Virus record (IMG/VR): IMGVR_UViG_3300035430_000018
Location: 1-28,127 of that record
Strand: one strand, 5' to 3'
Source of the DNA: a virus
Length of the DNA: 28,127 nucleotides
Below the pieces are notes generated by a model. It was given only the letters and a program-made list of their open reading frames with translations. It was not told where the DNA came from and made no database searches. The translations under genes and the position numbers were made by a program. Shown here one piece after another: positions 461 to 28,112 of this stretch. Within the stretch, counting starts at the first letter, position 1. Each line of letters starts with the position of its first letter.

Positions 461-661
461 TTACTTCGCTTTTTTAAGCAAGTGATACTTTGCGTAACGC
501 TTGCCGTCCTTTTTGGCTATCTCCGTATGTATCTTGTGACCACTCATGCGAAGGTCATTGATACGTGCGGCCAGCCTAAAACACCCATAGTTGTTTAGGG
601 CCTCCATAGCCGTGATCGGGCTTTTGGTTAAATGGTTAAGAATCTGCGTTGAATGGCTCAT
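461..661 (-). CDS. small helix-turn-helix protein
   Basis: This 66-residue protein looks like a winged-helix/HTH domain of the small phage type (HTH_39-like). It has an amphipathic first helix (TQILNHLTK), an SPITAMEALNNYG turn, a recognition-helix-like FRLAARINDLRMSGHKI, then a basic tail ending KYHLLKKAK. The ATG at 661 overlaps the stop of the upstream XRE-type gene (ATGA), so the two are probably co-translated. It most likely binds DNA and regulates transcription; no ligand or catalytic motif is visible. Family assignment rests on pattern, not on a search. Confidence 0.75.
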   Translation of the reverse strand: MSHSTQILNHLTKSPITAMEALNNYGCFRLAARINDLRMSGHKIHTEIAKKDGKRYAKYHLLKKAK

Positions 662-882
662 TCTTCCTCCTTGTATGGCAGATCAAGGAACGTATCAAAG
701 TCCATATCGAAACGCTCCGCGAAATCAACTATGCGGCCAAGGCTTGCATCCTTGCTCTTACGCCATCTGCCGATAGTTATATCAGTGACTCCGAAGTCCT
801 GCGCCAGTTGTTTATTACTGACGCGGAACTTCTTTTGTGCTGTCCGCAAAGACAGGCCAATGTCAAAATGGAATGTCGTCAC
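658..882 (-). CDS. XRE/Cro-like DNA-binding regulator
   Basis: The frame contains a Cro/C1-type helix-turn-helix: SLRTAQKKFRVSNKQLAQDF is followed by GVTDITIGRWRKSKDASL, with the QLAQ and TIGRW positions typical of helices 2 and 3. The acidic tail ends DLPYKEEE. The start is uncertain. The frame is open back to ATG 1023, but residues encoded upstream of about 882 run out of frame inside the SSB gene and look like a shadow. A GTG at 882 gives 74 residues and overlaps the SSB 3' end by 20 bases; it lacks an obvious ribosome site. It lies between the SSB-like gene and a second HTH gene. It may be a repressor of the phage's early promoters. Confidence 0.65.
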   Translation of the reverse strand: MTTFHFDIGLSLRTAQKKFRVSNKQLAQDFGVTDITIGRWRKSKDASLGRIVDFAERFDMDFDTFLDLPYKEEE

Positions 883-1165
883 TGAACTGGTCTGTGGCGG
901 CTGTGGATTCAATGGCGCTTCTGACTTGCTGAACGCCATCTGCATGAACTTTTGCCGGGTCTGGTTCCCATGTATCGAGTTTGGCATATAACTTATCGCT
1001 CGCTTTTGCTTTAAGGATTTCAATGTTTACCCAGTCACCTGACTGAGCGTTTAGGAATGGCACCATCTCTGACTTCTTGATGGATAGTTTGCAAATAGCG
1101 TAGTCGGGTGCCTTTGCGTTTCTCTTGCAGATCATTCCATCCACAAAAACTATGTTGCTACTCAT
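863..1165 (-). CDS. putative single-stranded DNA-binding protein
   Basis: This 100-residue protein has a beta-rich N-terminal part of about 70 residues (VFVDGMICKRN, AICKLSIKKSE, GDWVNIEILKAKASDKLYAKLDTW) compatible with an OB fold. A flexible linker leads to an acidic tail ending DDIPF. That tail is the hallmark of bacterial and phage SSBs, used to dock partner proteins. It is shorter than E. coli SSB (about 178 residues), and the core does not show clear SSB family motifs, so the call depends on the tail and context. The ATG overlaps the stop of the annealing-protein gene (ATGA at 1165) with a GGGAGAGA ribosome site. The pairing suggests recombination or replication. Confidence 0.65.
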   Translation of the reverse strand: MSSNIVFVDGMICKRNAKAPDYAICKLSIKKSEMVPFLNAQSGDWVNIEILKAKASDKLYAKLDTWEPDPAKVHADGVQQVRSAIESTAATDQFSDDIPF

Positions 1166-1755
1166 GTTGTCTCTCCCAAGATTAGCTTTCTGGCTTCGTT
1201 AAATTCATCAGATTTAAGATCACTACGCTCAGCAGTCGTGAAGATGCCGCCCTTGCTAGGTGCAACCCACAATGCCTTCTTGTCGTCGTTAGTAATCTCG
1301 CCCCATGCCTCTGCTACGGCCTCCCATGCCCGTAATGCGAGGTGTTCTTTGATGAAGTACACAGACGCATAGTTGCGCTGTAATGCTTCGTTGTGAGCCA
1401 TGATCGGCCCGGTGTCTTGCTGTTGTTGAATAGCGTTGGCAACCTCATCGGCTGACGCATACTCAGTGCCGCCAAAGCCTATAGCTGACAGACAGCGACC
1501 GATAGCGGAAGTCTCTGCATTCTCTAAGGCTGAAGTAGCATTGATCTTACTAGAAGCCCGTACCTCTTCTGAGTAACCAGTAGCCAGTAGACGGCCCTCG
1601 TCATTCAAGATACTTGCCTTCATGATGACCAGCACATCGTTAGCTTCTACAAGCTCAGTCGATATTGTGTAGTCGGGATGGGCGGCTCTAAACTCTGTGA
1701 CCCTTAGTGCCACGGTTTTATATTCTTTGCCGTGGATTTTTACTACGCCATTCAT
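1162..1755 (-). CDS. putative single-strand annealing recombinase (Rad52/Erf-like)
   Basis: The ATG at 1755 gives 197 residues. It overlaps the previous stop as ATGA and has a strong GGAGAG ribosome site; the open frame continues to 1863, but that extension overlaps another gene and is arginine/cysteine-rich, so it is rejected. Residues about 40-60 (beta strands, ILNDEGRLLATG) and 75-101 (SALENAETSAIGRCLSAIGF, then GGTEYASADEV) match the pattern of the Rad52-like annealing core, where a conserved A-E-T/K-A-R helix ends in a G-F-G turn. The rest is an acidic C-terminal extension. Such proteins anneal complementary ssDNA in phage recombination. The next gene encodes an SSB-like protein, which fits. 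Function is inferred from motif resemblance. Confidence 0.6.
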   Translation of the reverse strand: MNGVVKIHGKEYKTVALRVTEFRAAHPDYTISTELVEANDVLVIMKASILNDEGRLLATGYSEEVRASSKINATSALENAETSAIGRCLSAIGFGGTEYASADEVANAIQQQQDTGPIMAHNEALQRNYASVYFIKEHLALRAWEAVAEAWGEITNDDKKALWVAPSKGGIFTTAERSDLKSDEFNEARKLILGETT

Positions 1756-1970
1756 AGCGTCTCTCCTGCGTAAGATGCGGCATCGCGCATCTGGGTTAAG
1801 GCATAGCCGTCGGCATAGCCTGATAGGTACATATCGGTAGCGGGGTATCGCTGGCAGTTGCAAGCCAAGCCATCCTCGAACCCATGACGGAAGTCACGAC
1901 TAGCAATCCTCAGCCAGTCTTTGAAACGCTCTTCCAAGAAGTCGTCGTCGGACTTAGACAGATCAATCAT
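1752..1970 (-). CDS. hypothetical protein, 72 aa
   Basis: This small acidic protein has two cysteines close together (CNC near residue 37) and aromatic residues (DMYLSGYADGYALTQ). I do not recognise it. The start is well supported: GGAGG lies six bases before ATG 1970, which overlaps the end of the upstream gene by 8 bases. Its own stop overlaps the annealing-protein start (ATGA), so the three genes are translationally linked. No membrane segment or signal peptide is visible. Confidence 0.7.
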   Translation of the reverse strand: MIDLSKSDDDFLEERFKDWLRIASRDFRHGFEDGLACNCQRYPATDMYLSGYADGYALTQMRDAASYAGETL

Positions 1971-2277
1971 CGTAAGCCTCCGCGTGGCGCGCGGCCTCAG
2001 TCTCGATCAGGTCAATGATTATCGACTCGGAATAGTTCCATAGAAGCTCGCGGGTTTTCTGGACTACAACAGACGGATCAACATCATCATTAAAGATAAG
2101 GTCTACCCATTCAATCTCACTGCCAGTCTGTTGCATTGCGGTAGGTGCGATCTCGGATGAGACCTCTTCAACATCACACATGATGTCCCGACGGATATCA
2201 GGATCGGTAATGTCGTGGTAATTCTCCTCCCATGAAGGGTGGTTAATCATGATTTCGTAGAAATCGAAACGTGCCAT
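1963..2277 (-). CDS. hypothetical acidic protein, 104 aa (first gene of the early operon)
   Basis: The protein is strongly acidic (many D/E, for example DDVDP and the C-terminal EAYDD), with predicted helices in the second half. I recognise no family. It is the first gene after the promoter at 2297-2345; the leader carries a hairpin and a good AAGGGAGA ribosome site 7 bases before ATG 2277. Acidic small phage proteins at such positions are sometimes DNA mimics or inhibitors of host enzymes; here that is only a possibility. The downstream gene overlaps it by 8 bases. Confidence 0.7.
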   Translation of the reverse strand: MARFDFYEIMINHPSWEENYHDITDPDIRRDIMCDVEEVSSEIAPTAMQQTGSEIEWVDLIFNDDVDPSVVVQKTRELLWNYSESIIIDLIETEAARHAEAYDD

Positions 2278-2296
2278 TTGTCATCTCCCTTGGTTA

Positions 2297-2345
2297 GTTC
2301 CACATGGAACACAAACATTATGCGTTTGTTTTAGGGAGAATGCAA
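2297..2345 (-). promoter_or_regulatory. sigma70-like promoter and leader hairpin of the early operon
   Basis: On the minus strand a TTGCAT (2345-2340) and a CATAAT (2322-2317) are separated by exactly 17 bases. The -10 is framed by an inverted repeat ACAAAC/GTTTGT (2311-2316 and 2324-2329), a possible operator. Just downstream, at the expected 5' end of the mRNA, the palindrome GTTCCA-CA-TGGAAC (2297-2310) would form a leader hairpin before the AAGGGAGA ribosome site. The upstream element on the minus strand (2361-2350) recurs before the plus-strand gene at 27603. Confidence 0.7.
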
Positions 2346-2355
2346 ACAGTTTTTG

Positions 2356-2706
2356 TTAGTTAGTGTATGTCCACAGCACTGGCGTGGTTGTTCGGGCGTC
2401 AACGTGGATAAATGTGCGAGACACACCGATAGAGAATCCCATCTTGAGCGCTTCGTGTACGATGTTCATGCGCTCGACGCCATTAGACACAGCTATGTCT
2501 GCGGCTATGCCTTGGTTGTGAGTACCGGGGACTGGCTTTCTAGCCTCGTATGGATGGGACGCATCTCTATAACCAGAGGTAATGCGGAGGGGGAAGCCTA
2601 CTTTCTCACGTAATAGGTCTAGCCTTTCGATGAATGCAGAATCCATGCGGTTTAACCCGGTGTGCGTACAGTCAAACTCGCGTATGTCGAAGAATTTGTA
2701 TGTCAC
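2356..2706 (-). CDS. endolysin, M15 family peptidase
   Basis: This 116-residue single-domain protein matches zinc D-Ala-D-Ala/L-Ala-D-Glu-type peptidases of family M15 (Peptidase_M15_3). Visible motifs are RITSGYRD (41-48), GTHNQGIAADI with zinc ligands H63 and D70, and FIHVD with H101. It has no signal peptide, so it depends on a holin to reach peptidoglycan. The start is GTG at 2706, overlapping the holin stop as GTGA. It is the last gene of the late operon; its stop codon lies inside the upstream element of the next promoter. Length is typical for phage M15_3 endolysins. Confidence 0.88.
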   Translation of the reverse strand: MTYKFFDIREFDCTHTGLNRMDSAFIERLDLLREKVGFPLRITSGYRDASHPYEARKPVPGTHNQGIAADIAVSNGVERMNIVHEALKMGFSIGVSRTFIHVDARTTTPVLWTYTN

Positions 2707-27512: not shown

Positions 27513-27556
27513 AACTAACAAAAAATGTTGCTTTTTGATTTTAGATGTGTTTTAAT
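27513..27556 (+). promoter_or_regulatory. sigma70-like promoter with A-rich upstream element
   Basis: TTGCTT (27528-27533) and TTTAAT (27551-27556) are separated by 17 bases, with an extended TGT before the -10. Directly upstream AACTAACAAAAA (27513-27524) matches the minus-strand element at 2361-2350. The leader then forms the hairpin GGCTG/CAGCC (27566-27570 and 27577-27581) before an AAAGGGAGA ribosome site. Confidence 0.7.
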
Positions 27557-27602
27557 GTGTTCATCGGCTGGGGACACAGCCACTAACAAAGGGAGACACA
27601 CA

Positions 27603-28112
27603 ATGGCTAAAATTACTACTCAATGCGGTCGTCAGATCGTCCCAAGCTACCACGCTAAAGTTGTCGAGTACGCAACCATGATGGCAAACGCGCTTATGCT
27701 TGAGTTTGGTCACGACTTTGATCTTCATATCAAGACCAAGACTGGCGGGCGATCATGGGGCGGCGTAAAAGGCATCAGTATTGCTGACACATTGAGCGGT
27801 AACCGCGCCGTTTACAAATTCACTGAGTACAGCAGTATCGCGGACAGCAAGACTATAGGCACTGTGCGTGGCGACCAGGATTACTGTATTCGCGCACTTG
27901 TGGCACACGAAGTTGCCCATTGGTGGCACCATAACCTTTGCCGTGAGCAGTACGGTGCAAAGTGGGGTCGTCACCCAGAAGGCCGCAAAGGTGTAAACAA
28001 ACCTCATGGTCAACGCTGGCAGATGATTTACCGCGACTTGCGATTCTGGTTTGTCAATCCAGATACACGCGGTATTAATCCGTTTGATGCTATCGAATGC
28101 GAGGCCGCATAA
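27603..28112 (+). CDS. SprT-like zinc metalloprotease
   Basis: From ATG 27603 (ribosome site AAAGGGAGA about 8 bases upstream) the product has 169 residues; an in-frame ATG at 27525 lies in the promoter and is rejected. HEVAHWWHH gives zinc ligands H102 and H106 and catalytic E103, and NKPHGQRWQ gives the third ligand H135. This order and the HG-x-x-W element match SprT/Spartan-like proteases. The N-terminal 100 residues would form the beta/alpha part of the domain. It is the only complete plus-strand gene here and faces away from the late operon. Possible roles are cleaving DNA-protein crosslinks or host proteins early in infection; that is inference. Confidence 0.8.
   Translation: MAKITTQCGRQIVPSYHAKVVEYATMMANALMLEFGHDFDLHIKTKTGGRSWGGVKGISIADTLSGNRAVYKFTEYSSIADSKTIGTVRGDQDYCIRALVAHEVAHWWHHNLCREQYGAKWGRHPEGRKGVNKPHGQRWQMIYRDLRFWFVNPDTRGINPFDAIECEAA

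Follow-up and report, generated by a model that had tools for sequence, protein, structure and literature searches.

Sigma70-type promoters with a predicted 5′-hairpin leader recur in a marine podovirus and other phages

The two sites and their place in the genome

The window, that is, the whole stretch of DNA analysed, is a 28,127-base IMG/VR virus record from a marine phage. The phage is a podovirus whose T7-type head-tail connector is matched in the window (PF12236, E=1.5e-79). Its portal shares at most about 35% identity with the best deposited-phage matches, of which the top one is Methylophilales phage MEP301. Two sites, designated A and B, are built on a common plan. On direct reading each contains, between -47 and the start codon and in the order first described, an AACA-N5-TGTT dyad that leads into a -35 element, a 17-base spacer, a -10 element, six bases, a hairpin (at B, preceded by AUC), (A)CTAAC, AAGGGAGA, and ATG. 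The features of site A and its operon are as follows.

2357-2275, minus strand: site A as a whole, with sigma70-type promoter, hairpin, ribosome site, and ATG, read directly
2357-2345, minus strand: AACA-N5-TGTT dyad AACAAAAACTGTT, overlapping the -35 of promoter A
2317-2345, minus strand: promoter A; -35 TTGCAT (2345-2340), 17-nt spacer, -10 CATAAT (2322-2317)
2311-2329, minus strand: operator-like dyad ACAAAC-GCATAAT-GTTTGT, with arms on either side of the -10
2297-2310, minus strand: hairpin A, GTTCC-ATGT-GGAAC, at the predicted +1, with covariation in relatives
2284-2291, minus strand: AAGGGAGA, the leader A ribosome site, some of which pairs with the start of the coding region in the predicted structure
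1963-2277, minus strand: first gene behind A, 104 aa, ATG at 2277
658-1970, minus strand: rest of operon A in the window, with a 72-aa ORF and ERF-like, SSB-like, and HTH ORFs
1162-1752, minus strand: ERF-like annealing protein, labelled from sequence pattern and position, no curated family match
863-1165, minus strand: SSB-like gene, labelled from sequence pattern and position, no curated family match
658-1023, minus strand: HTH ORF of operon A

Site B is composed of the following features.

27517-27605, plus strand: site B as a whole, with sigma70-type promoter, AUC, hairpin, ribosome site, and ATG, read directly
27517-27529, plus strand: AACA-N5-TGTT dyad AACAAAAAATGTT, overlapping the -35 of promoter B
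27528-27556, plus strand: promoter B; -35 TTGCTT (27528-27533), 17-nt spacer, -10 TTTAAT (27551-27556)
27563-27581, plus strand: AUC and hairpin B, GGCTG-GGGACA-CAGCC (hairpin 27566-27581), predicted +1 to +19
27582-27596, plus strand: ACTAAC and AAGGGAGA (27589-27596), the predicted unpaired link and ribosome site of leader B
27603-28112, plus strand: first gene behind B, 169 aa, with an HExxH motif, weakly SprT-like

The start sites at both promoters are predictions from sigma70 geometry. The two hairpins have 5 bp each and begin no more than 3 nt from the predicted +1. At site A, GTTTGT separates the -10 from the hairpin, which begins 0 nt from the predicted +1 (2310). At site B, the -10 is followed by GTGTTC, ATC, and the hairpin; the predicted +1 is the A of AUCGGCUG (27563), and the hairpin starts 3 nt further. 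The ribosome site is open in the predicted fold of the B leaders. The predicted fold of leader A contains the hairpin, but some of its ribosome site pairs with the beginning of the coding region. For the G020 and L212 variants, the predicted fold of lowest energy has the 5′ arm bound to the ribosome site rather than within the hairpin. Leaders this short have folding energies no different from those of shuffled sequences.

The 104-aa first gene behind A has no Pfam or PHROG match. The first gene behind B had been called SprT-like; the HExxH motif of that label is present, but the match to PF10263 (E=0.056) falls below the Pfam cut-off.

Six related contigs share one gene order, M15 endolysin, site A, ERF operon, then site B, a small ORF, terminase, portal, and major capsid protein, and differ in their break points. 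The portal of one (G002) spans the contig ends and another (G003) carries terminase at both ends. In the relatives, A and B are convergent, with about 6-6.6 kb between them, and flank one early region. Both ends of the window contig fall within this region, so A and B are convergent neighbours on a circularly permuted contig. The earlier description of genes 25 kb apart is an artefact of the break point of the permuted circular map.

The A operon of the relative G001 comprises ERF-like, SSB-like, HTH, HNH, NinB-like, phosphoesterase, and NinG-like genes. Its B operon is short and is closed by a 66-aa ORF (L336, 6223-6423, minus strand) that is barely more than a sigma-70 region 4 (PF04545, E=3.1e-12), possibly a transcription regulator. 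A one-way intrinsic terminator lies at 144-170 of the window, plus strand, where AGCCCCCGTAACTGGGGGCT is followed by a T-run. It is oriented against the A operon, as if stopping transcription from the B side, and a terminator occupies the same place in the relative (L336, 2707-2690, minus strand). The endolysin-ERF-SSB-HTH early module (window 658-2706) is also found in G001, G003, G004, G012-G015, G019, G020, and G022. It is common to podovirus contigs and siphovirus-like contigs whose structural genes are unrelated, which is a clear case of module exchange. No integrase was found in the 26 records.

Recurrence and conservation of the leaders

Further copies had been expected in relatives, and both leaders do recur there, with one to three occurrences of the hairpin per record. 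In a scan of the record, AACTAACAAAAA occurs once per strand and its backwards control 0 times. The literal pattern AACTAACAAAAANTGTT gave 87 matches, most of which lie in unrelated viruses and reflect chance or coding sequence. Of 19 A sites, 18 carry the AACA-N5-TGTT dyad, against an expected 0.07; of 47 B sites, 23 carry it, against an expected 0.77. Since the leaders recur in relatives and the dyad counts are far above expectation, the likeness of A and B exceeds chance. That promoter and leader arose by duplication, as first proposed, is unproven, given how short the shared parts are and that the two hairpins are different.

Promoter A retains its -35 in relatives, and the spacer is variable. 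Many A promoters carry a perfect dyad over or around the -10, with clade-specific spelling (ACAAAC/GTTTGT, AAACATA/TATGTTT, ATAGAC/GTCTAT, or AGATAAC/GTTATCT); four sites lack it (L214, L272, L283, and L279). From their sequence, the -35 and -10 dyads look like operators, and a candidate for binding them is the product of the HTH ORF in operon A.

The B leader, AUCGGCUGGGGACACAGCCACUAAC(C)AAGGGA, is about 33 nt long. A pattern with 23 specified bases, ATCGGCTG..GACACAGCCACTAAC, matched 53 viral stretches, essentially all of which have promoter-like sequence before the leader and a start codon after it. Among 51 distinct sites, identity is 98% at +1 to +20, a value partly built in as the sites were found via the hairpin and mitigated by the hairpin-blind scan below, and 86% at +21 to +33. 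The promoter segments of the same sites are 40-50% identical, and the far flanks and coding parts 27%, near random level. In a scan that left the hairpin blank (TTCATC-N12-20-ACTAACCAAGGGA), the GGCTG...CAGCC/T stem was present in every match except a few from one repeated sequence family, coding-like and without a hairpin. Variants have the loops GAGACA, GGAACA, AGGACA, GGTACA, or the 5-nt ACGGA, or a terminal G-U; the stem is broken in none. G008 (the record of L015, around 8572, minus strand) has lost exactly the 16-nt B hairpin and kept the rest, leaving CTCATCACTAACCAAGGGAG.

The genes behind the B leader are diverse. Fifty distinct first genes fall into about 34 unrelated families, mostly ORFs of 50-130 aa; 18 distinct first genes behind A form 4 families. 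Phages that carry the B leader include podovirus relatives of the window, siphovirus-like contigs whose capsid is a different one (G012-G015 and G022), and other backbones (G011, G018, and G019). In the P2-like Aeromonas phage 59.1, a 28-nt exact match lies one discriminator length past a -10 and just before a gene. The exact leader is absent from about 85,000 bacterial species genomes, and plasmids contain weak partial matches at most. A host-derived leader is unsupported: a looser pattern gave one bacterial match, which reads as coding.

Covariation of the 5′ hairpins

Twelve relatives of site A were found by the downstream protein, and the hairpin is present in all nine that were aligned with the window. 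In siphovirus-like contigs, the same 14 bases precede the ERF operon behind a different promoter and with a different link (TTTGAAGGGAG). The least biased test is a sample of 80 loci that encode an ERF-protein relative, picked by protein and blind to the leader. A promoter, 5′ hairpin, and ribosome site stand in register at 38 of them, the hairpins including GTTCC-ATGT-GGAAC, GTCCC-GTGT-GGGAC, GTTCT-ATGT-AGAAC, TGTGC-AATGTC-GCACA, TGTGCA-ATGT-TGCACA, and GGCTG-GGGACA-CAGCC. More distant ERF loci have CGGTC...GACCG and ATGGC...GCCAT hairpins. By their spacing from the -10, hairpins A and B and most of the unrelated ones begin between +1 and +4. Among leaders picked on promoter score alone, a 5′ hairpin occurs in 7 of 10 distinct ones, against 0.51 expected from shuffling; for single leaders the shuffled chance averages 8%.

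When 12 hairpins are placed in one register, 96.7% of cells pair (79.4% shuffled) and 8 double changes are observed (2.2 shuffled), counts that sequence relatedness inflates and that support structure but fall short of proof. One stem pair occurs as U-A, G-C, C-G, and U-G. The conserved structure and the covariation anticipated in relatives are thus seen as compensatory stem changes at the A position, and the defined class of promoter plus 5′-hairpin leader is borne out by its recurrence. It had also been stated that the hairpins differ in bases and not in position. Different hairpins do occupy the same place, but within a class they are not free in sequence: the B stem is invariant except for the terminal G-U, and three of the five A pairs are invariant. 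The ERF gene of G011 has no such leader. Given this gene and the G008 site without its B hairpin, the hairpin is dispensable in some phages.

Function of the leader and comparison with known systems

The architecture is well supported in its anatomy, position, conservation, covariation, and downstream gene exchange. We consider it an even chance that each site as a whole is a sigma70 promoter-plus-leader cassette whose 5′-terminal hairpin shields the mRNA and leaves the ribosome site free. Host RNA polymerase would use A and B as sigma70-type promoters, each driving one of two convergent operons of a single early region, and both operons would be expressed early. Each transcript would start no more than 3 nt before a short hairpin of 5 bp with a loop of 4 or 6 nt, which would be followed by a largely unstructured link and a strong ribosome site. 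The hairpin would most probably shield the 5′ end from attack by pyrophosphohydrolase and RNase E. It would also hold structure off the ribosome site, so that any downstream gene would be expressed strongly and durably. The B leader would be passed on and swapped as one constant stretch of about 33 nt, ahead of a locus whose first gene keeps changing. This reading draws on the 5′-end position, short stem, and immediately following ribosome site that all members share, with a stem sequence specific to each class.

Stem-loops that stabilise mRNA from the 5′ terminus are known from E. coli ompA and papA, engineered bla, and the T4 gene 32 leader. In ompA-type stabilisers, the hairpin is at or near the 5′ end and a single-stranded ribosome site follows. 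The A and B leaders share the hairpin position, and in their predicted folds the ribosome site is open in B leaders and partly paired in A. Few unpaired 5′ nucleotides precede the hairpin, namely 0 nt at A and 3 nt at B counted to the predicted +1, and the unrelated hairpins are similar. The A and B leaders differ from the ompA type in forming a recurring cassette of early phage promoters, in which stabilisation would apply by analogy, and the B leader differs further in being fixed in sequence and exchanged between phage types. According to a review (PMC3997798), bla mRNA is made more stable by a hairpin at its 5′ end, which hinders RppH; for T4 gene 32 mRNA, the same effect is ascribed to a 5′ CUUCGG hairpin (PMC8948821).

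Compensatory changes would likewise be expected if the palindrome at +1 were a DNA operator at which a phage or host repressor shuts the promoter, with the RNA hairpin a by-product of the dyad. This is the main rival to 5′-end protection, possible though not probable. As DNA, A-type sites read almost perfectly as palindromes, loop included (GTTCCA-TG-TGGAAC), and that of L391, GTTCCACGTGGAAC, is perfect; the dyads at -35 and -10 and the HTH ORF in the operon suggest that the promoters are regulated. However, the loop measures 4, 5, 6, or 8 nt, with a change from 6 to 5 within B, which a dimer would not easily tolerate. One-sided stem changes are mostly G-U on the sense strand (L347, L289, L325, and L408), conservation in B extends through ACUAACCAAGGGA, well beyond the palindrome, and the position is always at the RNA start. 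The loop-length variation, the sense-strand G-U pairs, and the conservation through the ribosome site weakly favour RNA.

Protection alone does not explain the near letter-perfect B stem; shared recognition or frequent exchange must be added. A pure stabiliser is disfavoured as the sole account because it has no need for an invariant stem sequence. We regard as doubtful a further proposal, that the B leader acts as a regulatory RNA unit carried by phages, whose sequence is specifically recognised by a common factor of host or phage origin, and that horizontal exchange has distributed it among podoviruses, siphoviruses, and P2-like phages. It would mark an accessory-gene port at which ever-changing early genes, serving host takeover or counter-defence, enter a single expression cassette that is already in place.

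It is unlikely that the leaders in general constitute a shared early regulon, read as RNA in a sequence-specific manner by a trans-acting factor, through antitermination of the boxB or put kind or through regulation of translation. Stem and link of the B leader, and the greater part of its loop, hardly vary across unrelated phage backbones, and two fixed spellings of boxB-like size, A and B, coexist in one genome. Like lambda nut boxB and HK022 put, they are short hairpins opening early phage operons. Unlike those elements, they lie at +1, with many different and unrelated hairpins at the A position. No boxA was recognised by eye in the leaders, their loops are not uniformly GNRA-like, and no Rfam family matches them. 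The sole strong intrinsic terminator in the A-B region of G001 faces the opposite way, and in the A direction that region (L336) gave weak terminator-pattern matches only, leaving no evident target for read-through.

It is highly improbable that the leader is a mere recombination joint, maintained by gene shuffling as a mobile cassette or patch of homology in which the hairpin has no RNA role, since the sharp conservation edges, the 34 or so downstream families, and the spread over several phage types including Aeromonas phage 59.1 come with a promoter side that diverges like the gene side, stems kept while loops change, and hairpins of unrelated sequence at the same spot, none of which recombination alone predicts.

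Two other candidates were rejected. An N4-type single-stranded DNA hairpin promoter does not fit, as a sigma70-type promoter precedes the hairpin, which occurs also in a P2-like phage. The ERF-operon leader hairpin of L391, GTTCCACGTGGAAC, is identical to what we take to be the chromosomal parS core, from which the window version differs by 1 base. The core is not kept: GTCCCGTGTGGGAC, GTTCTATGTAGAAC, the TGTGC family, and the B hairpin all depart from it. As the relatives diverge from the core, the likeness is probably a coincidence. T3 and T7 promoters end in a AAGGGAGA-like sequence, as the leaders do; a T7-type polymerase (PF00940) was found in 0 of 26 records in a search without a positive control.

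According to PMC4503421, which cites Arbiol 2010 and Comeau 2014, the PeSLs of T4-type phages are small units of a sigma70 promoter and a stem-loop, tied to the shuffling of small variable genes, and their stem-loops are terminators in composite promoter-terminator motifs. Sites A and B resemble them in a strong sigma70-like early promoter (a match in sequence only) and in the exchange of neighbouring small genes, as in the many first-gene families behind B. Unlike PeSLs, the A and B hairpins start the mRNA downstream of the promoter, have no T-run, and number one to three per record. In archaeal viruses, conserved early regulatory sequences precede many unrelated small early genes and have been used to find anti-defence genes (PMC11065993). 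In both cases, the regulatory sequence is better conserved than the genes behind it. The conserved part is the BRE/TATA promoter in the archaeal viruses, whereas here it is the transcribed leader, and the promoter diverges.

Each ingredient is thus already known. Among the papers searched, none described a transcribed leader that is conserved above both its promoter and its genes and common to several phage types, the nearest being the T4 PeSLs and the archaeal-virus motifs. The fixed 33-nt B leader offers a sequence bait for genes whose expression probably comes first in phages of uncultured marine hosts; such genes may act in host takeover and counter-defence. The covarying natural leaders are test material for whether 5′-terminal hairpins are a general protection of early mRNA in phages.

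The motif ACTAACNAAGGGAGA is confined to the A and B sites in the window. It is unspecific on its own, being shared by a second, longer leader in other phages. An Rfam search with two examples of the longer leader (L109 and L137) gave no match. This longer leader looks structured, carries AGACTGGTAG..ATAGCC ... GGATTGCGAATACAACTAACAAAGGGAGATAGGTAGATG with repeated pairing segments, and is present in L109, L115, L127, L137, L151, L153, L166, and others.
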